Positions 19,311 to 31,045 of a stretch of DNA of 53,639 nucleotides are shown here, in pieces; position 1 is the first letter of the stretch, and the number at the start of each line of letters is the position of its first letter. Origin of the DNA: Flavobacteriaceae bacterium (GTDB lineage Bacteria; Bacteroidota; Bacteroidia; Flavobacteriales; Flavobacteriaceae); contig JAURMQ010000047.1 of NCBI GenBank assembly GCA_030830625.1, forward strand, positions 1 to 53,639, in the 5' to 3' direction. A model generated the notes under the pieces. That model was not told the origin of the DNA. It saw only the letters and a list, made by a program, of their open reading frames with translations, and did no database searches. Made by a program: the position numbers and the translations under genes.

Positions 19311-19667
19311 ATGGACTACTTTCTTTATTTGAGCAGCTGTAATACTTGCAAAAGAATTATGGGAGAACTGTCGCTTCCCAAAGAAGTAATATTGATTGAC
19401 ATCAAAAAAGAGCCGCTCACAGAGGATCAATTGGCTTATTTATATCATTCCACAGGCAGCCATCTGGATTTGATCAATAAACGTGCACAATTGTTCAAAA
19501 GTCGAAAAATTGATCCCCAAAAATTAACAGAAGAAGCTGCAAAAGATTTGCTTTTGGAACATTACACTTTTCTCAAACGTCCAGTATTGGTGTACCGAGA
19601 CCAAGTTTATGTAGGCCATAGCAAGGCTGTAGTAGCCGATGCAAAAAAAGGGTTAGATGAACACTAG
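19311..19667 (+). CDS. ArsC/Spx-family thioredoxin-fold protein
   Basis: A 118-residue protein of the ArsC/Spx family. The redox motif CNTC is near the N-terminus in YLSSCNTCKRIM, and the family pattern continues with VILIDIKKEPLT, then LINKRAQLFK and KRPVLVYRDQVYVGHS. Members include arsenate reductases and RNA-polymerase-binding Spx regulators. The chromosomal Bacteroidota type is of unproven function, and no other arsenic gene is nearby. The ATG at 19311 is preferred over a GTG six bases upstream. The stop overlaps the next gene by 11 bases. Confidence 0.85.
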   Translation: MDYFLYLSSCNTCKRIMGELSLPKEVILIDIKKEPLTEDQLAYLYHSTGSHLDLINKRAQLFKSRKIDPQKLTEEAAKDLLLEHYTFLKRPVLVYRDQVYVGHSKAVVADAKKGLDEH

Positions 19668-20547
19668 ATCGTGGGCGCTTTTGGCAGCTGCAGGAGCTAC
19701 CACCATTTATGGGCTCAACCACACAGTGGCCAAAGTAGTCATGCCAGATTATGTGGGGGCATTTGGTTTTATATTTATACGAACGGCTGGGGCCACTTTT
19801 CTTTTTTGGTTGCTCAGTTTTTTAATCCCCAAAGAAAAAATTGAGCGTCAAGATTACCTCCGATTGTTTTTAGCCGCTTTGATGGGAATGTGTATCAATA
19901 TGCTTTCTTTTTTCAAAGGATTGGAACTTTCTACCCCCGTAAACAGTGGTATTTTTGCAACTACCAATCCCATCATCATACTCTTACTCTCCTACCTGTT
20001 TTTGGGTGAAAAAATTGGGATGAGAAAATTTTTGGGCATCACTATGGGATTTACCGGTGCTATTATGTTGGTGCTTTATGGCCATCAAAACACGACCAAC
20101 GCTCCCAATGTCATGTTGGGAAATATTTTATTTATGATCAACTCCATCTTCTTTTCTGGATTTATCATAGTGATCAAGCCTTTGTCGGAAAAATACAACA
20201 CGGTCACCATCATGAAATGGTTGTTTTTAATCGGATTTATCCTCACCCTTCCTATAACCGTGGAAGAATATTCCCAAGTGAAATGGATGTCCATGCCCGA
20301 TGATGTACTTTGGAGAATTGCCTTTGTGGTTTTGGGAACTACCTTTACTACCTATTTGCTCAATCTTTACGCCTTGAGAAATTTGCAAGCTTCGACGGTA
20401 GGGGCTTTTGCATACGCCCAACCCATCATTGCCATAGGGTATGCCGTTTATACGGGGAATGATGCATTGAATGGAGTCAAGGCCATGGCTTGTTTGATCA
20501 TTATGCTGGGGGTGTATTTGGTTTCCAAAAAACCGACCAAAGGTTAA
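19657..20547 (+). CDS. EamA/DMT-family transporter
   Basis: A 296-residue inner-membrane protein with ten predicted helices arranged as two EamA repeats. The first opens with AAAGATTIYGLNHTVAKVV and includes GLELSTPVNSGIFATTNPIIILLLSYLFLGEKIG. The second ends with YALRNLQASTVGAFAYAQPIIAIGYAVYTGNDALN. The family exports or imports small metabolites such as amino acids, and the substrate is unknown. Its start lies within the end of the ArsC-family gene, so translation is likely coupled. Confidence 0.93.
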   Translation: MNTRSWALLAAAGATTIYGLNHTVAKVVMPDYVGAFGFIFIRTAGATFLFWLLSFLIPKEKIERQDYLRLFLAALMGMCINMLSFFKGLELSTPVNSGIFATTNPIIILLLSYLFLGEKIGMRKFLGITMGFTGAIMLVLYGHQNTTNAPNVMLGNILFMINSIFFSGFIIVIKPLSEKYNTVTIMKWLFLIGFILTLPITVEEYSQVKWMSMPDDVLWRIAFVVLGTTFTTYLLNLYALRNLQASTVGAFAYAQPIIAIGYAVYTGNDALNGVKAMACLIIMLGVYLVSKKPTKG

Positions 20548-20642: not shown

Positions 20643-21122
20643 ATGAAGAAATCCTTAGTATGGTTATTTGTTTTGTCTTTGGCAACAGCATGTGGTCCAA
20701 AAGAAGAAAAAAAGAAATCCTTTGAGTACAAACGAACTACTGAGGAAAAAAAGGGGGAAAAAAAGAAAACAGAAAAGACCGCTGTTGATTATGAAAATAT
20801 GGGGATTGGACCGATCCAATCAATGGTTTTTGAAGCCGATATCAATACTTCTTTGGCGGAAGAGGGAGCCGGAATTTTCAAACAAAAATGTACTGCTTGC
20901 CATATGACGGACCGCAAATTAATTGGCCCTGCCATGAAAGGAATTTATGAGCGCAGAAGTCCCGCTTGGGTAATGAATATGATACTCAATCCTACTGAAA
21001 TGCTACAAAAAGACAAAACGGCAATGGCCTTGTTGAAAGAATACAACAATGTGATGATGCTCAATCAAAACCTCAGCGAAAAGGAAGCCCGTGCCTTGGC
21101 AGAGTATTTTAGAACGCTATAA
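20643..21122 (+). CDS. Lipoprotein c-type cytochrome
   Basis: A 159-residue single-haem cytochrome c. The signal ends in a lipobox (ATAC, C17). A lysine- and glutamate-rich linker of about 40 residues follows. The haem domain has CTACH at 83-87 and candidate axial methionines near MMLNQNL (about 138-140). The ATG at 20643 begins the signal peptide, and a TTG 27 bases upstream is less likely. The last six bases overlap the convergent gluconate dehydrogenase subunit 3-like gene. Given that neighbour and the GMC enzyme, this is the likely electron acceptor of a periplasmic sugar dehydrogenase, by analogy with three-subunit gluconate and glucoside dehydrogenases. Confidence 0.9.
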   Translation: MKKSLVWLFVLSLATACGPKEEKKKSFEYKRTTEEKKGEKKKTEKTAVDYENMGIGPIQSMVFEADINTSLAEEGAGIFKQKCTACHMTDRKLIGPAMKGIYERRSPAWVMNMILNPTEMLQKDKTAMALLKEYNNVMMLNQNLSEKEARALAEYFRTL

Positions 21123-21761
21123 CGACCAAGCTTTTCCTCCTGTAGCTTCCATCAAATCCACACAACCTTTTTGTTCTCCAGGAATCGAAACATAAGCCAA
21201 GACGTTTTCTCCAATGTATTCATTCGTTTTAAAAGCATTGATGGTCATGCTGCGAAGCTGATCTGCAAATTCATAGGAGGCTGCTGATGTGGGTTGAGCA
21301 AGAGTACTGTCTTCTTTTACAGCTTTTTGATACGCACTGTTTTCATCTTGCCACGCTTTTTGTTGGTCTTGATCCGCTTTTAGGTATTTGGCCAATTGGG
21401 CGTCCAAGTCTGCTCTGTCTAATCGACCCGCACTGCTTTTGCCACTCGCCTCAAGTGATCCTTTTATAAAATGATCCAATCCAGCGACAATCTTTTCCTG
21501 CGCTGGTTTATTGAGGATGATGTTGATATAACCGTCCAAAAATTCGGGTAGTTTTAATTCGATAGCACCGGGAATATCTGTTTTCGGAATGATCAAGTCC
21601 ATTAACTGGGAAACCACCGAAAATTGTTCCTTAGAAAAATGGATCGGGTTGAATGATGAGGTTTGGGTTTGGCAACTTTGAAGCATTCCCAACACGGCAG
21701 GGGTAACCGTAATGGCTGTTGTTCCAAATCCAATGGTTCTTAAGGCTTTTCTTCTGTCCAT
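21117..21761 (-). CDS. Gluconate 2-dehydrogenase subunit 3 family protein (Tat signal)
   Basis: A 214-residue small subunit of the gluconate 2-dehydrogenase subunit 3 family. A twin-arginine signal opens the protein (MDRRKALRTIGFG, R3-R4) followed by a hydrophobic segment. The mature part has the family elements QLMDLIIPKTDIPGAIELKLPEFLDGYI and GCVDLMEATGG near the C-terminus. In characterised complexes this subunit carries the catalytic GMC subunit through the Tat pathway, and the GMC protein here indeed has no signal of its own. It lies 11 bases downstream of the GMC gene on the same strand. Confidence 0.93.
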   Translation of the reverse strand: MDRRKALRTIGFGTTAITVTPAVLGMLQSCQTQTSSFNPIHFSKEQFSVVSQLMDLIIPKTDIPGAIELKLPEFLDGYINIILNKPAQEKIVAGLDHFIKGSLEASGKSSAGRLDRADLDAQLAKYLKADQDQQKAWQDENSAYQKAVKEDSTLAQPTSAASYEFADQLRSMTINAFKTNEYIGENVLAYVSIPGEQKGCVDLMEATGGKAWSL

Positions 21762-21772
21762 AGTTGTATCAA

Positions 21773-23464
21773 TTATAGATTCATTTTTTTAAGTTCTTTA
21801 ACGGCATGGTCCACGGCTCTTGCGGTCAATGCCATGTAGGTCAATGAAGGGTTTTGATTTCCCGCTGAGGTCATTCCAGATCCATCAGTAACATATACAT
21901 TGGAAACCGAATGGAGTTGATTGTACTTATTGAGTACAGAAGTTTTGGGATCGCGTCCCATTCTGGCTGTACCCATTTCGTGAATACCCAATCCCATAGA
22001 ATATCCTTTGTCGAAAGGAGTAACGTCTTTAAAGCCGGCTGCATCGAGCATTTCGGCTGCTTGAACGGTCATATCCTTTCGCATGATTTTTTCATTTTCC
22101 TTGATTTCAGCATCAAAAGTAACGGTGGGTAATCCCCATTGGTCTTTTTTATCGTGATCGAGGTACATTTTATTGTCGTGATAGGGCAATGTTTCTCCAA
22201 ATGCAGTCATCCCAATTTTCCAACCGCCGGGAGTCAATACGGCATCTTTCAGCCCTTCACCGTATCCCATCTCTTTAATCATTTCGGTCCAATTGCCTCG
22301 ACTGGCCCCTCCTTGGTATCCGTACCCTCTGATAAAGTCTTTTTGATTGGTGGCTCCACCGATATTTCTGAACCTCGGGATGTATATACCATTGGGTCTT
22401 CTACCGGTGTAATACTTATCTTCGTGCCCCTCAACAGTAGCCGTAGCACCCAGTCTAAAATGGTGATCCATGAGATTGTGCCCCAACTCTCCAGAGTCAT
22501 TGCCCATACCATTGGGGAAACGATCGGAAGTAGATTGCATTAATATTGAGGTAGAGGCTACTGTCGAGGCGCAAAGGAAAACAACTTTGGCTTTGTACTC
22601 AATAACCTCTTGAGTTTCAGCATCAATCATGCGCACCCCAGTAGCTTTTTTAGTGTCGGCATCATACATAACTTCACTTACAACAGAGTTGGGTCTAAGA
22701 GTCATATTTCCCGTAGCTTCTGCGGCGGGTAACGTAGAGGAGTTGCTGCTAAAATAGGCGCCGAATGGACATCCTCTTCGGCAACGATTTCTGTATTGAC
22801 ATGTATTTCTTCCCAAACCGGGCTTTGTCCCTTCGGTAATATGAGCAACCCTGCCGATGGTAATGACTCGGTCGGTATATTTTTTGGCTACTGCACTTTT
22901 TAATTCGTCTTCCACACAATTCAATTCCATGGGTTTAAGAAACTCACTGTCGGGTAGGTGTGGTAATCCCAATTTTTCACCGCTGATTCCAATATATTTT
23001 TCTACATAGGTGTACCATGGAACAAGATCTTTATAACGTATAGGCCAATCTACGGCTATACCGTCTTTGGCATTGGCTTCAAAATCAAAGTCACTCATAC
23101 GATAACTTTGTCTTCCCCAAAGCAGTGAACGCCCTCCTACATGATACCCTCTGATCCAATCAAAACGCTTGTCTTCGTTGTAAGGGTGTTTATTATCGTC
23201 CACAAAAAAATGCGAAGTAGATTCGGTATTTACATAATTGGTTCGGCTCTGTTTAGGCTGACGTTTTCTGATCTCTTGGGTGATCTTGTCTCCCCCTTCG
23301 AAATCCCAATTGTCCATATGGGCTGTGGTATAGTCCACTGGATGTTGAATCATGGGGCCTCTTTCCAAAACCAGGGTTTTTAATCCCTTTTCACACAACT
23401 CTTTAGCAGCCCAACCGCCACTGATTCCAGTTCCTACTACAATAGCATCGAAAGTATTGTTCAT
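21773..23464 (-). CDS. GMC-family FAD oxidoreductase, candidate sugar 3-dehydrogenase
   Basis: A 563-residue flavoenzyme of the GMC family. The FAD-binding motif VVGTGISGGWAAKEL is at about 9-23. GGRSLLWGRQSYR follows near 111. The C-terminal active site has HEMGTARMG (His near 495) and NQNPSLTYMALTAR (Asn near 538). Cysteines C222, C228 and C232 lie in a cluster, recalling the [3Fe-4S] cysteines in FAD-dependent glucose dehydrogenase. There is no signal peptide, so export with the Tat-bearing partner downstream is expected. Relatives oxidise gluconate at C2 or glycosides at C3. The genomic partners favour C3 oxidation of a glycoside, which is an inference. Confidence 0.92.
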   Translation of the reverse strand: MNNTFDAIVVGTGISGGWAAKELCEKGLKTLVLERGPMIQHPVDYTTAHMDNWDFEGGDKITQEIRKRQPKQSRTNYVNTESTSHFFVDDNKHPYNEDKRFDWIRGYHVGGRSLLWGRQSYRMSDFDFEANAKDGIAVDWPIRYKDLVPWYTYVEKYIGISGEKLGLPHLPDSEFLKPMELNCVEDELKSAVAKKYTDRVITIGRVAHITEGTKPGLGRNTCQYRNRCRRGCPFGAYFSSNSSTLPAAEATGNMTLRPNSVVSEVMYDADTKKATGVRMIDAETQEVIEYKAKVVFLCASTVASTSILMQSTSDRFPNGMGNDSGELGHNLMDHHFRLGATATVEGHEDKYYTGRRPNGIYIPRFRNIGGATNQKDFIRGYGYQGGASRGNWTEMIKEMGYGEGLKDAVLTPGGWKIGMTAFGETLPYHDNKMYLDHDKKDQWGLPTVTFDAEIKENEKIMRKDMTVQAAEMLDAAGFKDVTPFDKGYSMGLGIHEMGTARMGRDPKTSVLNKYNQLHSVSNVYVTDGSGMTSAGNQNPSLTYMALTARAVDHAVKELKKMNL

Positions 23465-23690
23465 AGTATTTTAATTGAGGTTATATTTCTATTCCATGTA
23501 AAAATATCTTTTTGAATGACAAACGACAAAAAAAATTCCTTTTTTTTATGGAATTCAACTCAGGAAATTAAAAAAACTGAATCGGCTCCCCCAAAAAGTT
23601 TTAAAACCACTTCTATGCATTCCACTTTAAATCCATTTTAGTTTTGAAAAATTAATCCTATTTTTACTTCTGTCATAAAAAATACTAAAA
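23465..23690. promoter_or_regulatory. Divergent promoter region between the GMC and Gfo/Idh genes
   Basis: This 226-base AT-rich gap separates the two halves of the sugar-oxidation module. For the minus-strand GMC gene there is a candidate promoter: CAAAA at 23527-23531 (TTTTG on the minus strand) and TAAAAATA at 23499-23506 (TATTTTTA, one mismatch to TAnnTTTG), 20 bases apart. For the plus strand a TATTTTTA-like element lies before the Gfo/Idh start, without a well-spaced -33 box. No operator palindrome stands out, and no regulator gene lies nearby. Confidence 0.35.
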
Positions 23691-24833
23691 ATGAATAGAA
23701 TTCGATTAGGCGTAATAGGAGGGGGTGGTGATTCACTCATTGGGGTTCTGCACCGAGTAGCCTCCTATATGTACGACCGCTATGATATTGTGGGAGGAGT
23801 TTTTAATCCCGATTATGAAGAAAACATCAAATTTGCCCGCCAAATAGGGGTGAATACTGAAAGGGTGTACAAGGATTTTGATGAATTTATAAGTGAGGAA
23901 TCCGCTAAACCCGAAAATGAAAGAATAGAAGTCGTTTCTGTTTTGACCCCCAATTTTTTGCATTACCCCATGGCCAAAAAGCTATTAGAAAATGGTTTTA
24001 ACGTCATCTGCGAAAAACCCTTAACTACATCTTTAAAGGAAGCTTTGGAGCTTCAAGCTTTACAAAAAAAACACAATGCCATTTTTGCAGTAACCTATAC
24101 TTATACGGGTTACCCCATGGTACGAGAAATGAAAGATATGATCGCCAATGGGGTCATCGGTGAAATCACTAAAGTAGATTTACAATACTATCAAGGTTGG
24201 ATAAACTCTGTGATCCACGACAAGGAAAAGAGAAGTAAAGTATGGCGATTGGATCCCAAAAAAGCAGGAATTAGTTCTTGTATTGGCGATATCGGTACCC
24301 ATATTTTTAATATGGTAGAATATGTAACGGGCTTGGAGGTATCCGAATTGCTTTCTGACCTCAACACTCTTTACGACGACAATCCATTGGATATTGATGG
24401 ATCGATTTTGATCCGAATGAACAATAAAGTAAAAGGGTTGTTGAGAGCGAGCCAAATTGCTACTGGTGACGAAAACAATATTACTGTGGCCATTTACGGT
24501 CGAGAAGGAGCGTTGAAATGGGAGCAAGAAAACCCCAATTATTTGTACCATCTGAAAGACGATGAGCCCAGAAGATTGATTAAACCCGGAAATGCTTCCT
24601 ATAATACGGCTGTTTCTTTGGACGGCTCAAAAATTCCTGCTGGCCATCCCGAAGGAATATTTGATGCTATGGGAAACATCTATAAAGGAGTCGCCAAAGC
24701 ACTCAGGGGAGAAAAATCCTTCAACGGTGAATTCCCAACCCTCTACGAGGGAGTCCGGGGGATGATGTTCATCGAAAAAACTGTTGAATCTAATCAAAAA
24801 GGAAACGTATGGGTAAGCATGGAAAATCAATGA
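23691..24833 (+). CDS. Gfo/Idh/MocA-family dehydrogenase
   Basis: A 380-residue NAD(P)-dependent sugar oxidoreductase. The Rossmann motif is LGVIGGGGDSLIG (about 6-18). The family's catalytic lysine motif EKP is at 108-110 in VICEKPLTTSL. The C-terminal half contains SCIGDIGTHIFNMVEYVTG, where a family-type GxxxxH histidine is placed. It has no signal, so it works in the cytoplasm. It overlaps the next gene by four bases (ATGA). In 3-keto-glycoside pathways such enzymes reduce or oxidise C3 of the sugar, and I propose that role here from context. Confidence 0.93.
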   Translation: MNRIRLGVIGGGGDSLIGVLHRVASYMYDRYDIVGGVFNPDYEENIKFARQIGVNTERVYKDFDEFISEESAKPENERIEVVSVLTPNFLHYPMAKKLLENGFNVICEKPLTTSLKEALELQALQKKHNAIFAVTYTYTGYPMVREMKDMIANGVIGEITKVDLQYYQGWINSVIHDKEKRSKVWRLDPKKAGISSCIGDIGTHIFNMVEYVTGLEVSELLSDLNTLYDDNPLDIDGSILIRMNNKVKGLLRASQIATGDENNITVAIYGREGALKWEQENPNYLYHLKDDEPRRLIKPGNASYNTAVSLDGSKIPAGHPEGIFDAMGNIYKGVAKALRGEKSFNGEFPTLYEGVRGMMFIEKTVESNQKGNVWVSMENQ

Positions 24834-25882
24834 AAACCCTAAAAGGTCCCGCTGTTTTTTTGGCTCAGTTTGTGGATAAAGCCGCCCCTTTTAATTCTTT
24901 GGACGGCATGTGTAAATGGGCCGCTGATCTGGGGTACAAAGGAATTCAGATCCCCACTTGGGAAAATTTTTTGATCGATTTGGACCAAGCGGCCGAAAGC
25001 CAAACCTATTGCGATGAGTTGAAAGGAAAAATCAATTCTTATGGTTTGGAAATCACAGAGCTCTCTACCCACCTCCAAGGACAATTGGTAGCGGTTCATC
25101 CGGCCTATGACTTGATGTTTGATAATTTTGCTCCCGATGCTTATAAAAACAATCCCAAAGCGAGAACCGAATGGGCCATTGAAACCCTTAAAAAAGCAGC
25201 AAAAGCGAGTCAAAGACTTGGACTGAATGCCCATGCAACTTTTTCCGGTGCTCTGCTCTGGCATACTTGGCATCCTTGGCCGCAACGTCCCGATGGTTTG
25301 GTGGAATTGGGATTCAAAGAATTGGCCATAAGGTGGCTGCCCATTCTCAATACTTTTGATGAGAACGGTGTCGATGTATGTTACGAAATTCACCCCGGTG
25401 AAGACCTCCACGACGGAGTAACTTTTGAGCGTTTTTTGGAAGCCACTGGAAATCACAAAAGAGTCAACATACTTTATGACCCCAGTCATTTTGTTCTCCA
25501 ACAATTGGACTACATAGCCTACATAGACCACTACCACGAGTTCATCAAAGCTTTCCATGTCAAGGATTCAGAATTCAATCCTACTGGGAAAAAGGGAGCC
25601 TTTGGGGGTTATGGAGACTGGATTGATCGTGCTGGACGCTATCGTTCTCCTGGCGATGGACAAATAGATTTCAAAACCATCTTCACCAAGCTAACCGAGT
25701 ACGGTTGTGATGTTTGGGCGGTAATGGAATGGGAATGTTGTATAAAGAGTCCCGAACAAGGTGCTCGCGAAGGAGCCCCTTTTATCCAGTCGCATATCAT
25801 CGAAGCTACCCAAAAAACTTTTGATGACTTTGCTGGCTCTGAAATTGACGAAAATCACTTAAAAAAAATATTAAATCTTTAA
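24830..25882 (+). CDS. TIM-barrel sugar isomerase/epimerase (xylose isomerase-like)
   Basis: A 350-residue cytoplasmic protein of the AP endonuclease 2/xylose isomerase-like TIM-barrel family. The expected metal ligands are visible: E186 in CYEIHPGED, D217 and H220 in LYDPSH, H243 in AFHVKDSE and E300 in VMEWECC. The ATG at 24830 overlaps the Gfo/Idh stop (ATGA), which decides the start over an in-frame ATG 21 bases upstream. Relatives include 3-keto-sugar epimerases and the glycoside-cleaving members of C3-oxidation pathways, where the enzyme carries out elimination or hydration at a 3-keto glycoside. The exact reaction is inferred. Confidence 0.92.
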   Translation: MKTLKGPAVFLAQFVDKAAPFNSLDGMCKWAADLGYKGIQIPTWENFLIDLDQAAESQTYCDELKGKINSYGLEITELSTHLQGQLVAVHPAYDLMFDNFAPDAYKNNPKARTEWAIETLKKAAKASQRLGLNAHATFSGALLWHTWHPWPQRPDGLVELGFKELAIRWLPILNTFDENGVDVCYEIHPGEDLHDGVTFERFLEATGNHKRVNILYDPSHFVLQQLDYIAYIDHYHEFIKAFHVKDSEFNPTGKKGAFGGYGDWIDRAGRYRSPGDGQIDFKTIFTKLTEYGCDVWAVMEWECCIKSPEQGAREGAPFIQSHIIEATQKTFDDFAGSEIDENHLKKILNL

Positions 25883-25892
25883 AAAAAATCAA

Positions 25893-26636
25893 ATGAGAAA
25901 AATTTTATTTATCGCGTTGTTGTCGCTCACTACTGCCTGTAACCAAAATCCTAAGAAAAAAGCTCCAGCTGCCGATGCAGCAAAGGCTGAAGCGGCTCCT
26001 GTGGAAAAACATTGGGAAAATTTATTCGATGGCGTTTCTTTCAAAGGCTGGCATCAGTTCAACAAGTCCGAAATGAGTTCGGCATGGATCATTCAAGATG
26101 GAGCAATGGTATTTGATCCTGCTAAAAAAGAAAAAGGAAGCAATCACGATATCGTTACCGACAGAGAGTTTACCAATTTTGAACTCTCCTTGGAATGGAA
26201 TATTGCGGAAGTAGGCAACAGTGGTATTTTTTGGGGCGTCAAAGAAGGTGAAAACTTTAATAAGCCTTATGAAACTGGCCCCGAAATCCAAGTGTTGGAC
26301 AATGAGCGCCACCCTGACTCTTTTAAAAATCCAAACTATCACCAAGCTGGAGCTCTCTACGACATCGTGCAACCTTCACAGAATGTTTGTAAGCCTGCAG
26401 GGGAGTGGAATCATACCGTTGTATCCATTGATTACAATGCCAATCTTGGAAGTGTAAAACTCAACGGTGTAGAAATTGTAACTTTTCCACTGAGTGGTCC
26501 TGAATGGGATACTTTGGTTGCCAATTCTAAATTTGCCGATTGGGAAAATTTTGCCAAATACAAGACGGGGAAAATTGGATTGCAAGATCATGGTGATGGG
26601 GTAAGCTATCGCAATATCAAAATTCGGGAGCTTTAG
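25893..26636 (+). CDS. DUF1080 lipoprotein (3-keto-disaccharide hydrolase family)
   Basis: A 247-residue protein with a lipoprotein signal (LTTAC, C16) and an alanine-rich linker. It has one DUF1080 jelly-roll domain (about 45-247), recognised by NLFDGVSFKGWHQF, NFELSLEWNIAEVGNSGIFWGV, ETGPEIQVLDNERHPD, HQAGALYD and the closing YRNIKIREL. The family was renamed after members that cleave 3-keto-glycosides. As a lipoprotein it acts outside the inner membrane, where it could cut the C3-oxidised glycoside made by the GMC complex. It lies 10 bases after the TIM-barrel gene and 5 bases before yicC. Confidence 0.92.
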   Translation: MRKILFIALLSLTTACNQNPKKKAPAADAAKAEAAPVEKHWENLFDGVSFKGWHQFNKSEMSSAWIIQDGAMVFDPAKKEKGSNHDIVTDREFTNFELSLEWNIAEVGNSGIFWGVKEGENFNKPYETGPEIQVLDNERHPDSFKNPNYHQAGALYDIVQPSQNVCKPAGEWNHTVVSIDYNANLGSVKLNGVEIVTFPLSGPEWDTLVANSKFADWENFAKYKTGKIGLQDHGDGVSYRNIKIREL

Positions 26637-28691: not shown

Positions 28692-28742
28692 TTTGGATTC
28701 ACAAAAAATTGATTACTTTGGTAAACCAATTTGGTAAACCAA
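28692..28742 (+). promoter_or_regulatory. Promoter and tandem operators of the alginate lyase operon
   Basis: Two copies of the near-palindrome TTGGTAAACCAA lie at 28718-28729 and 28731-28742, a 13-base repeat. The second ends five bases before the PL6 start codon. A promoter-like pair lies over and just upstream of the first copy: TTTG at 28692-28695 and TACTTTG at 28714-28720 (a close relative of the Bacteroidota -7 element, one base short). Its end merges with the operator. FCD-type GntR regulators such as UxuR bind TTGGTNNACCAA-like sites, so the GntR protein encoded at 33960 is the natural candidate. Confidence 0.72.
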
Positions 28743-28747
28743 TTTAT

Positions 28748-31045
28748 ATGGAAAAGAAAATTCTATTTTTTCTAAGTTTAGTGACCTTTGTAATGCCTTA
28801 TGGACTCATCGCTCAAGAAAGCACGCTGGTCAGGAACGTTGAAGAATTCGACAAGGCCGTACAATTAGCCCAAGCCGGAACTACTATCGTATTGGCCAAT
28901 GGAATTTGGAAAGATGCCGAACTGCTTTTGGAAGGTAAAGGCACAGCAGAAAAACCGATTAAACTGACGGTGGAAGATAAGGGAAAAGTAACCTTAGAAG
29001 GACAGTCAAATCTAAGATTAGCAGGTTCCTATCTTCACGTAGAAGGACTGGTCTTTAAAAACGGGTTCACGCCAACCAGTGAAGTCATTTCATTTCGAAA
29101 AAACAACAACACTTTGGCCTATCATTCCAGGGTTACCGAATGCGTTATAGACCACTACTCCAATCCAGAACGTCATGAGCAAGACAGTTGGTTGGTTCTC
29201 TATGGTAAAAATAATAGAGTGGACCACAACCATTTGGAAGGCAAAGGGAATATAGGAGTCACCTTGACTGTACGACTAAATTCCAAAAACAGCGTGGAAA
29301 ACAACCACATCATAGAGCACAACTATTTTGGTCCTCGGCCTACCTTGGGCTCCAATGGAGGAGAAACATTGAGAATAGGCACCAGTCACTACTCTATGGA
29401 AAATTCAAAAACCATCGTACGCAATAATTATTTCGATCGTTGTAGTGGAGAGTTGGAAATTATTTCCAACAAATCCTGCCAAAATACTTTTGAAAACAAT
29501 GTTTTTTACGAAAGCGAAGGTACCTTGACCCTACGGCATGGCAATGAAACCACAGTGAAGGGAAATGTATTTTTAGGAAACCGAAAACCCAATACTGGTG
29601 GCATACGAGTGATCAACGGTCAACAAACCGTTAGCGATAATTACGGTTATGGGCTGACGGGTTTTCGATTTAGAGGGGCGTTGGTGGTTATGAATGGAGT
29701 CCCCAATTCCCCTTTGAATCGGTATTTCCAAGTGGCCGATGCCGTTATTGAAAATAATGTATTTGTAGATTCCGACCAAATTCAACTGTGTGCGGGGAGT
29801 GATGCAGAACGATCCGCTACCCCTATCCATTCCGTTTTTAAAAACAATACTTTTTACCGAAAAGGTCCAGAAAAAATATTCACCATCTACGATGACATTA
29901 GTGGAATAAAGTTTGATAAAAACACCTCCAACTACCCTGTTCTCGATGCAGTCAAAAAAGGATTCAAAATCAAAAAAATGAATCTTATCGAAGACGAGCA
30001 AGGACTCATGATGCCCGTGATTAACGGAAAAATGATTCGTCCTGATTTGGCTCCAACCCTCCCCACCAAAAGGAATGTAGGAACAGATTGGTATTCCAAA
30101 GAAGACAAACGTGTAGCGTTTGGAAGTGGAAAAGTTATTCCCGTGAAAGCAGGAATCAACACCCTATACGATGCCATTAATATCGCCCGTGCTGGAGATC
30201 AACTGTTGTTGACAGAAGACGGAACTTATGAAATGAGTAAAATTCCCTTGATTTCTCGCAGCCTGACTATTAAAGCGACCGAAAATATCAGACCTGTTGT
30301 TTTGTGGGAGAAAAAAGCGGCCTTTGAAATCGTCAATGGAGGGGCGCTGTCATTAGAGGGAATTGTATTCGATGGCGAAAACGCTCCGGATTATTCCGGC
30401 AATGCAGTGATCAGAACCAGTCGTTATTCCATGAATCAAAATTACAGTTTGAAGATTGTCAATTGTGACTTTAAAAATCTGGATGTCAATCATTCCTTTG
30501 ATGTGATAAAAGTGTTTAAAAATACATTTGCAGATGCAATTTATATCGCTGATTCACAATTTGAAAACATCTCTGGCAACGTCATGGCTTTAGATAAAGA
30601 AACCGATGATATTGGAATTTACAATGCACAAAATGTGAGTTTACTCCATTGTAATTTTAAGAACATCGGCGGGGCGGTAATAAGTATTTATCGAGGAGGT
30701 AAGGATGAAAGCACCTTTGGGCCCCTATTAAATATTGATCAATGCAGCTTTCAAAACATTGGCTTTGGCAGTAGAAATAAATTACAATCGGCCATAAAAT
30801 TATACGGCGCACAACAGATTATGATAAAAAATTCTATTTTTGACCATAGCCAAAACATTAAAATACACTTGGTTGTAGGAGAACCTATTGTAGAGATAGA
30901 CCATTTGAATCTGAGTCCCCATACCAAAATTGAGATGAGTGGAGATCAACCCTACCTATTGGGGACCCTCTACCAAAAAACCAAACCTGAAGAGATTCGT
31001 CTTTTGAAAGGAGATAAAAATCAACCCTTGGGCTACCAAAATTAA
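28748..31045 (+). CDS. PL6-family alginate lyase
   Basis: A 765-residue secreted lyase with a signal peptide (cleavage near LIAQ, residue 23). The N-terminal half is a right-handed beta-helix of the PL6 type. Active-site residues match those of the PL6 enzyme AlyGC by spacing: K242 and R263 as base and acid (21 apart), E235 and E237 and N203 as calcium ligands, in the segments GELEIISNKS, TLTLRHG and GSNGGE. The C-terminal half (about 450-765) is a second parallel beta-helix. It cleaves alginate by beta-elimination outside the inner membrane. The ATG at 28748 starts the signal peptide. A TTG at 28709 would run through the operators. Confidence 0.94.
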   Translation: MEKKILFFLSLVTFVMPYGLIAQESTLVRNVEEFDKAVQLAQAGTTIVLANGIWKDAELLLEGKGTAEKPIKLTVEDKGKVTLEGQSNLRLAGSYLHVEGLVFKNGFTPTSEVISFRKNNNTLAYHSRVTECVIDHYSNPERHEQDSWLVLYGKNNRVDHNHLEGKGNIGVTLTVRLNSKNSVENNHIIEHNYFGPRPTLGSNGGETLRIGTSHYSMENSKTIVRNNYFDRCSGELEIISNKSCQNTFENNVFYESEGTLTLRHGNETTVKGNVFLGNRKPNTGGIRVINGQQTVSDNYGYGLTGFRFRGALVVMNGVPNSPLNRYFQVADAVIENNVFVDSDQIQLCAGSDAERSATPIHSVFKNNTFYRKGPEKIFTIYDDISGIKFDKNTSNYPVLDAVKKGFKIKKMNLIEDEQGLMMPVINGKMIRPDLAPTLPTKRNVGTDWYSKEDKRVAFGSGKVIPVKAGINTLYDAINIARAGDQLLLTEDGTYEMSKIPLISRSLTIKATENIRPVVLWEKKAAFEIVNGGALSLEGIVFDGENAPDYSGNAVIRTSRYSMNQNYSLKIVNCDFKNLDVNHSFDVIKVFKNTFADAIYIADSQFENISGNVMALDKETDDIGIYNAQNVSLLHCNFKNIGGAVISIYRGGKDESTFGPLLNIDQCSFQNIGFGSRNKLQSAIKLYGAQQIMIKNSIFDHSQNIKIHLVVGEPIVEIDHLNLSPHTKIEMSGDQPYLLGTLYQKTKPEEIRLLKGDKNQPLGYQN

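Follow-up and report, generated by a model that had tools for sequence, protein, structure and literature searches.

A 53,639-nucleotide contig from a Flavobacteriaceae bacterium (GenBank assembly GCA_030830625.1, contig JAURMQ010000047.1), here called the window, contains a locus of six genes that encode a cytochrome c lipoprotein; a small subunit resembling gluconate-2-dehydrogenase subunit 3 (PF13618) with a twin-arginine translocation (Tat) signal; a flavoprotein dehydrogenase of the GMC family; and, divergently, an oxidoreductase of the Gfo/Idh/MocA family (Gfo), a TIM-barrel protein and a DUF1080 (PF06439) lipoprotein. Relatives within the genus carry this locus with an azurin-like copper protein in place of the cytochrome c, and we consider it probable that the locus specifies an oxidative 3-keto-glycoside route with an exchangeable carrier, in which carrier, small subunit and dehydrogenase recombine as one cassette, with the dehydrogenase adapted to the carrier in use. 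Gene content, synteny, the mutual exclusivity of the carriers, the conflict among gene trees, one exchange with its boundaries and the association of dehydrogenase residues with the carrier are established at the level of sequence, and the 3-keto-glycoside reading of the locus is well supported at that level too. We infer the enzyme activities, the substrate, the electron path, the cleaving step, product transport and which way the Gfo enzyme works. What is new is the exchange of cytochrome and azurin coupled to the dehydrogenase; the sugar pathway itself adds breadth only.

Exchange of the electron carrier

Different genes occupy the position between EamA and the small subunit within the genus, and in 11 genomes the one found there encodes an azurin-like lipoprotein of 169-170 residues with a cupredoxin domain. 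Searched genome-wide, the 22 genomes of the genus contain an intact cytochrome c in 10 instances, an azurin-like protein in 11, both intact in none and neither in one (G008), making the carrier azurin-like in 11 of the 21 genomes of known carrier, window genome included. The intact cytochrome lies beside the GMC gene in 9 of the 10 cytochrome genomes; in the tenth (G004, locus L047) the contig ends in GMC, and this locus was labelled cytochrome by hand, two intact cytochrome genes standing at the ends of other contigs of that genome. The one azurin-like sequence scanned against profiles, from G019, scores 54.4 bits with Pfam Copper-bind (cut-off 21.2) and 96.5 bits with the NCBIfam azurin model TIGR02695, and because the latter falls just below its cut-off of 105.1 we retain the label 'azurin-like'. 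The other azurin-like proteins match that of G019 at 61-99%, and His...Cys-x4-His-x3-Met, which we take to be the azurin copper ligand pattern, was read in all 11 open reading frames. In G012 the azurin gene is intact, and after it comes what is left of a cytochrome gene, interrupted by in-frame stops and reading CTTCQ where CxxCH would stand; azurin therefore appears to have arrived in that lineage as the cytochrome c decayed.

For a wider view we used the best 80 loci found through the hydratase encoded by the TIM-barrel gene (the named loci, some of them cut by contig ends), all from Flavobacteriaceae or from records named only Bacteroidetes, Bacteroidia or Flavobacteria. Sixteen outgroup loci were hand-picked from these, and L088, L095, L097 and L136, whose carrier was not assignable, were left out of the trees. 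The 12 labelled loci outside the genus comprise 7 with cytochrome and 5 with azurin, at the corresponding position or no more than 1.3 kb from the small subunit. The carrier trees do not include L140, L146 or the Aquimarina loci, whose GMC residues were read separately.

Genes of the locus differ in how well their phylogenies agree with the carrier. On genus gene trees the carrier label changes once with GMC, 3 times with the small subunit and 4-7 times with each of nine flanking genes. A single clade of azurin rows is rejected by the left flank (metB, ArsC, EamA; approximately unbiased (AU) test, p 8.5e-5, 20 rows) and by the right flank (Gfo, hydratase, DUF1080, yicC, gmk, nadD; p 8.4e-9, 21 rows). 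A separate flank tree and the fixed-difference count given below leave ArsC out. Small subunit and GMC together place the azurin rows in one clade, with a Shimodaira-Hasegawa-like approximate likelihood ratio (SH-aLRT) support of 98.9. Carrier and dehydrogenase therefore appear to move as a cassette of ~3 kb.

One such exchange can be delimited in the close pair G002 (azurin) and G001 (cytochrome). Their metB, EamA, Gfo, hydratase and DUF1080 proteins are 90-97% identical and ArsC 81%, as against 64% for the small subunit and 73% for GMC; compared with the more distant azurin genome G006, G002 is 87% identical in the small subunit and 95% in GMC, as against 76% in metB and 68% in EamA. In a profile of DNA identity in 150-base steps (the G001 contig ends at DUF1080), G002 matches G001 at 85-92% from EamA up to where the carrier gene begins, falls to 27-77% across the genes for azurin, small subunit and GMC, and is back at 84-95% in the stretch that runs from Gfo through DUF1080, placing the left boundary inside the carrier gene and the right boundary between GMC and Gfo. 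The signal peptide of the G002 azurin resembles that of the G001 and G017 cytochromes. Against G010, G014 and G006, the EamA DNA of G002 is 59-81% identical and its small subunit and GMC 75-95%; its azurin DNA is 71-86% identical to that of G010 and G014, and only 63-68% to that of G006.

Dehydrogenase residues that track the carrier

Within the genus, GMC has 13 alignment columns (one of them an inserted residue) that are uniform within each carrier class and different between classes, and the nine other locus genes compared, small subunit included, have none. Three GMC columns differ in class frequency by at least 0.8 both in the genus and in the outgroup (5 azurin and 7 cytochrome rows): V220, in 15 of 16 azurin rows and 0 of 17 cytochrome rows; Y234, with the same counts; and I425, in 16 of 16 azurin rows and 1 of the 16 cytochrome rows that have a residue there. 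Matches split into pieces are represented by their best piece, and the GMC sequences of G012 and G003 contain unread residues. V220 and Y234 flank a cysteine motif, C222-x5-C228-x3-C232, which the alignment shows to be shared with fructose dehydrogenase (PDB 7w2j), where we take it to bind an iron-sulfur cluster; the motif had gone unmentioned in an earlier reading of this DNA made from its letters and open reading frames (the sequence-only reading). Each of the 12 outgroup GMCs has, on average, more in common with the cytochrome class than with the azurin class, as if GMC had changed faster after the swap.

Table 1. Features of the locus in the window. Pfam and PDB scores are in bits.
Feature	Position	Strand	Evidence or remark
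Cytochrome c lipoprotein, one CxxCH, 159 residues, 480-bp gene; putative electron acceptor	20643..21122	+	PF00034 40.6; lipobox read from sequence
Gluconate-2-dehydrogenase-subunit-3-like small subunit; N-terminus MDRRKALRTIGF, twin-arginine, Cys after it	21117..21761	-	PF13618 76.2
GMC flavoprotein, putative glycoside 3-dehydrogenase, without its own signal peptide	21773..23464	-	PF05199 75.5, PF00732 55.2; fructose dehydrogenase 134; tree
GMC C222-x5-C228-x3-C232, putative iron-sulfur cluster ligands	22769..22801	-	Aligned to Cys of fructose dehydrogenase 7w2j
GMC residue F234	22763..22765	-	Tyr in 15/16 azurin-partnered, Phe in 17/17 cytochrome-partnered tree GMCs
GMC residue N220	22805..22807	-	Val in 15/16 azurin-partnered, 0/17 cytochrome-partnered tree GMCs
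Divergent intergenic region	23465..23690	.	Right end of exchanged cassette about here in G002 (DNA identity profile)
Gfo/Idh/MocA oxidoreductase, putative 3-keto-glucose reductase	23691..24833	+	PF01408 74.1, PF22725 74.7; best PDB 3v5n 312
TIM-barrel 2-hydroxy-3-keto-glucal hydratase	24830..25882 (likely start 24830; longest open reading frame 24809-25882)	+	8ro4 match
DUF1080 (PF06439) lipoprotein, putative 3-keto-glycoside lyase/hydrolase	25893..26636	+	PF06439 160.3; 3h3l 139, 8tda 111

The dehydrogenase and its proposed sugar pathway

Open reading frames and profile searches (each gene above its curated Pfam cut-off) confirm all six genes as intact at the coordinates that the sequence-only reading had given them in this 1.89 Mb genome (153 contigs, 86% complete). 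The cytochrome c gene does not share a transcription unit with the dehydrogenase: the cytochrome c and small-subunit genes are convergent, tail to tail, with a 6-bp overlap. The two halves that diverge between GMC and Gfo are also a conserved association, as that reading had required. GMC searches matched all 22 genus genomes, and GMC diverges from Gfo-hydratase-DUF1080 in 20 of the 21 others as it does in the window (G008 lacks a contig with the locus; the L040 contig stops after DUF1080 and L047 within GMC). Among the 80 named loci GMC is present in 78, Gfo in 75 and DUF1080 in 78, and the full set of these three with the hydratase is found in 72, a co-occurrence that is not independent evidence because all loci were found through the hydratase and all belong to the same family or its kin; 63 have the small subunit as well, and yicC adjoins in 67. 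Independent sets include plasmids of Hymenobacter volaticus (GMC, small subunit, permease, Gfo, hydratase, cytochrome c, DUF1080) and Xanthomonas sacchari (identical in kind, cytochrome c and DUF1080 included); a similar Pseudoalteromonas plasmid cluster without an annotated cytochrome; Croceicoccus and Ketogulonicigenium clusters without an annotated DUF1080; and Catenovulum, with GMC, small subunit and DUF1080. The gene arrangement is far beyond chance. As a separate observation, 27 of the 80 named loci (L078-L157; e.g. L095, L100, L102) carry a second GMC, about 56-66% identical, between Gfo and hydratase on the opposite strand.

In the proposed mechanism the GMC flavoprotein would be exported by riding on the Tat-signal small subunit and, once in the periplasm, would oxidise a glycoside at its C3 hydroxyl, with electrons passing from flavin adenine dinucleotide (FAD) to the putative iron-sulfur cluster, the membrane-bound lipoprotein carrier and finally the oxidase. 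The DUF1080 lipoprotein would cleave the resulting 3-keto-glycoside, the cytoplasmic hydratase would turn 2-hydroxy-3-keto-glucal into 3-keto-glucose, and the Gfo enzyme would reduce 3-keto-glucose to glucose. The carrier would be exchangeable, cytochrome c in the window and, in half the genus, a protein of the azurin-like kind. Recombination would swap the carrier together with the small subunit and the dehydrogenase, as a single cassette flanked by genes that stay in place, and residues near the cluster would fit the dehydrogenase to the carrier it is paired with. Periplasmic GMC oxidation with electrons given to the carrier, and a DUF1080 lipoprotein acting on the same side, had been put forward in the sequence-only reading and find support in homology and context. 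The twin-arginine pair of the small subunit is kept in all 32 aligned rows, and the window genome encodes TatC and one COX1.

The nearest relatives of the GMC protein in the PDB are fructose dehydrogenase and FAD glucose dehydrogenase. In a 25-row tree, fructose dehydrogenase and three of the four gluconate-type GMCs (L165, L200, L201) lie on a 99/99 branch away from the window GMC, and the fourth, L166, is a long branch of unsure placement; the window GMC groups with those of Catenovulum, Hymenobacter, Xanthomonas and Ketogulonicigenium clusters. Neither of the placements that the sequence-only reading had named as fatal to it was found: the gluconate 2-dehydrogenase types occupy that separate branch with fructose dehydrogenase, and cholesterol-type oxidases, kept outside the tree, score far lower. 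The grouping is not clean, as Pseudoalteromonas GMCs with pathway genes present branch outside it and those of L167, L198 and L199, without the full annotated pathway set, branch inside; the pathway label changes twice on this tree. The gene for a large cytochrome c subunit, typical of the gluconate- and fructose-dehydrogenase type, has no counterpart in the operon, where a 159-residue, one-CxxCH lipoprotein is instead encoded on the other strand. A second GMC elsewhere in the window genome (G000:C33:64-1746; L074, L002), 50% identical and with its own PF13618 match (1799-2155), groups in the same tree with a GMC from a Haliscomenobacter plasmid.

The TIM-barrel protein matches PDB 8ro4, '2-hydroxy-3-keto-glucal hydratase', in a full-length relationship (545.8 bits, 225 of 348 residues identical). 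The name isomerase/epimerase, used in the sequence-only reading, gives way to hydratase, a predicted activity that fits better at 546 bits. The last protein scores 160.3 bits (cut-off 26.8) with PF06439, '3keto-disac_hyd', a family of 3-keto-disaccharide hydrolases; the putative role of Gfo as a 3-keto-glucose reductase is carried over from the Agrobacterium operon described below. The window genome (1.9 Mb) has nine PF06439 matches, eight besides that of the locus and two of them within one 469-residue frame, which is many 3-keto-glycoside cleaving domains for such a small genome. A permease of the nucleoside/H+ symporter type stands between GMC and Gfo in many members of the family (64 of the 80 named loci) and in 0 of the 8 named loci that are genus members; the window genome has a homolog on another contig (C149), adjoining a BNR-repeat gene. 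EamA (19657-20547) was considered as the sugar transporter of the module and rejected, as EamA and ArsC also occur in a stretch of G032 without GMC (L187). Farther along the window, downstream of nadD, lies a polysaccharide lyase of the chondroitinase-B/PL6 type (28709-31045; PF14592, 406 bits), matched at 65% only in L042/L078 (one genome) among the stretches examined.

The respiration-linked route, taken by the sequence-only reading to be undescribed, is already published in its parts and main combination. In the LacABC system we take LacB to be a cytochrome c and LacC the PF13618 subunit. The GMC catalytic subunit of our locus likewise adjoins a PF13618 small subunit, and a DUF1080 gene is nearby. 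A cytochrome c lies beside the dehydrogenase on the other strand in the window, azurin takes its place in 11 genus genomes, and neither is seen in 38 of the 60 named loci able to show one. Price et al. 2022 (PMC9007349) proposed that LacABC, with LacA recognised at no less than 40% identity to Caulobacter LacA, and DUF1080 proteins cooperate across a variety of bacteria, with Caulobacter and, from the Bacteroidetes, Pedobacter and Indibacter as examples, so that the pairing of a periplasmic dehydrogenase with DUF1080 was already published, Bacteroidetes included. The Caulobacter cluster has epimerases, a reductase and a transporter nearby, ten Pedobacter DUF1080 genes had no lactose phenotype, and electrons and cytochromes go unmentioned in the main text (PMC9007349). 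Like that system, including its relatives in Algoriphagus and Halomonas, the locus combines a three-part dehydrogenase with a nearby DUF1080 protein bearing a putative signal peptide, sugar epimerases, a sugar reductase and, as proposed there, periplasmic oxidation; unlike it, the locus has a carrier that alternates with azurin, a single epimerase-like gene and, in this genus, no permease, a transporter being part of the LacABC clusters.

AtHYD of Agrobacterium tumefaciens we take to be PDB 8ro4, to which the hydratase here is 65% identical. The operon of that species comprises a flavin GlycDH with a Tat-signal partner, OGE as beta-eliminase, a putative hydratase, and an oxidoreductase of the Gfo family that is proposed to give back glucose by reducing 3-keto-glucose (PMC10628242). 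Our locus shares the flavin dehydrogenase with its Tat-signal partner, the hydratase and the Gfo enzyme; cleavage there is by the TIM-barrel AtOGE and here presumably by the DUF1080 lipoprotein. Cytochrome c is cited as electron acceptor of FAD glucoside 3-dehydrogenase in PMC9915066, and PMC10653915 deals with steroid C3 oxidation. The locus also resembles fructose, FAD glucose and gluconate-type GMC dehydrogenases in its aligned cysteine motif, small subunit and cytochrome c partner, and differs from the fructose-dehydrogenase-like operons on Pantoea, Agrobacterium and K. vulgare plasmids in its separate GMC clade and in its 480-bp lipoprotein gene, the cytochrome c genes there being 834-1416 bp. 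The Bacteroides BT2156-BT2159 3-keto-glycoside system, in which the first oxidation is NAD-dependent (nicotinamide adenine dinucleotide), likewise has Gfo-family, DUF1080 and TIM-barrel genes; the Gfo protein here scores far under the cut-offs of NCBIfam BT_2158_fam/BT_2159_fam.

The exchange itself has a parallel in phytoplankton, where plastocyanin replaces cytochrome c6, a copper carrier for a heme carrier in one position. Our case differs in that the donor is a dehydrogenase, the organisms are Bacteroidota, and the donor gene is exchanged along with the carrier. Azurin is the natural acceptor of a pyrroloquinoline quinone (PQQ) type II alcohol dehydrogenase, also periplasmic (PMC8348568), a PQQ enzyme as against the GMC flavoprotein here. 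According to PMC8779525, azurin has no common operon pattern save in two Flavobacteriaceae, where it accompanies a regulator. An azurin partner for a GMC glycoside dehydrogenase was not found in literature listings, which covered openly licensed papers only, or in passages of PMC8779525, PMC8348568 and PMC5937911.

Competing explanations and significance

Several observations weigh against an exchangeable carrier with an adapted dehydrogenase. The genus gene, flank, AU-test and independent-pairs trees were built by a quick method, and the small-subunit tree alone has no single azurin clade. The finding that speaks for a link between residues and carrier, that only 2 of 792 outgroup relabelings, the real one counted, give three carrier-tracking columns, comes from a control that ignores relatedness and includes the near-copies L109 and L143; an independent-pairs test of residues 234 and 425, with 3 pairs only, is not significant. 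G012, with its cytochrome remnant, has Y234 but N220. L117 carries F234, as do Altibacter L140 and Leeuwenhoekiella L146, whose azurins are 1.0 and 2.7 kb off; L152 has Y234 in its second GMC, and L097 has Y234 with no carrier found. (An azurin beside the GMC of L097, guessed from its Y234, was looked for and not found.) Azurins are 60-76% identical where their GMCs are 90-95% identical (four listed pairs), and in two pairs with G012 the values are 69-70% and 77-78%; boundaries or rates therefore differ between events. Of the named loci, 60 contain the small subunit with 700 bp or more of sequence past it; 38 of these show neither carrier there, many of the 38 having only about 1 kb of room, and in three Aquimarina the cytochrome is on the opposite side. 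Homologs of the cytochrome are also present where a genome gives no GMC match (e.g. G026, G029, G036). In L181 one stands beside a fasciclin and a nosZ-type gene, and in G032 (L187) one lies 3 kb from ArsC/EamA on a 9-kb stretch that lacks GMC. The cytochrome may therefore be a general carrier.

Such a general periplasmic carrier, swapped for reasons unrelated to GMC in what is otherwise the published module only, with the GMC classes a by-product of linkage, is the strongest competitor, though we judge it rather unlikely. It accommodates the homologs in genomes lacking GMC, found by a nosZ-type gene where checked, and the single carrier present genome-wide in 21 of 22 genus genomes, and linkage alone would carry GMC along. 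Linkage fits poorly with the 13 fixed class differences of GMC when the small subunit, lying between GMC and carrier, has none; moreover, the carrier-tracking residues by the cysteine motif recur beyond the genus, and the nearness of all 12 outgroup GMCs to the cytochrome class is as expected if GMC changed faster post-swap. As to possible clients of the cytochrome, homologs of the window cytochrome head a similar gene run, with products of about 190 and then about 655 residues, in L181, L183, L184, L188 and L189; by Pfam (L181 and L183 only) the run includes a fasciclin in L181 and a nosZ-type gene in both. NosZ as a client within the genus was rejected, since no nos_propeller match was found in the window genome or the 21 other genus genomes (65-99% complete).

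There is still less to recommend the view that GMC oxidises another substrate (a free sugar, a polyol or another alcohol) while the Gfo-hydratase-DUF1080 operon is fed by a different dehydrogenase. Hydratase and Gfo do stand without annotated GMC or DUF1080, beside ATP-binding cassette (ABC) transporters, in Phyllobacterium and Azospirillum; an Alteromonas GMC and small subunit have no other pathway gene annotated within 6 kb; a Haliscomenobacter GMC has only Gfo beside it; the window genome offers the second, 50% identical GMC and the 8 further DUF1080 matches; and the GMC tree contained no characterised glucoside 3-dehydrogenase. Yet GMC adjoins Gfo, hydratase and DUF1080 in both Bacteroidota and Gammaproteobacteria. 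In L158, L159 and L160, hydratase-Gfo pairs without annotated GMC or DUF1080 lie beside sugar ABC transporters, and uptake of ready-made 3-keto sugars may therefore be possible there. That the azurin and cytochrome versions are chimeric contigs produced by assembly or binning is very improbable: most of the genomes do look metagenome-assembled (incomplete, in many contigs), but the cassette lies between both flanks on a single contig in 20 of 21 genus loci, the other being L047, and the name of azurin genome L080 (AG-914-G02) reads as that of a single-cell genome.

A more specific version of the exchangeable carrier with its adapted dehydrogenase is entertained only tentatively, as a real possibility. 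In it, one GMC glycoside 3-dehydrogenase would have two dedicated acceptors, cytochrome c and azurin, either of which can stand in for the other; acceptor and dehydrogenase genes would pass between species as a metal-swap cassette, with the dehydrogenase retuned at positions 220 and 234, beside the iron-sulfur exit. The left boundary could then fall inside the signal-peptide region of the carrier, so that the lipoprotein anchor already in place receives a new redox domain. A need to save iron in the open ocean may be what drives the exchange. Isolate names offer only a lead here, with azurin loci mostly open-ocean (MED, TMED, RS, EAC, ERR run numbers) and cytochrome loci coastal or polar (NorthSea, DEBay, FRAM, SI034).

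The swap is a natural exchange of a heme for a copper carrier before the same enzyme, within one bacterial genus. The close pair G001/G002, the intermediate G012 and the candidate electron-exit residues make the matching and re-matching of redox partners testable, and let one ask whether ocean metal supply selects the carrier.

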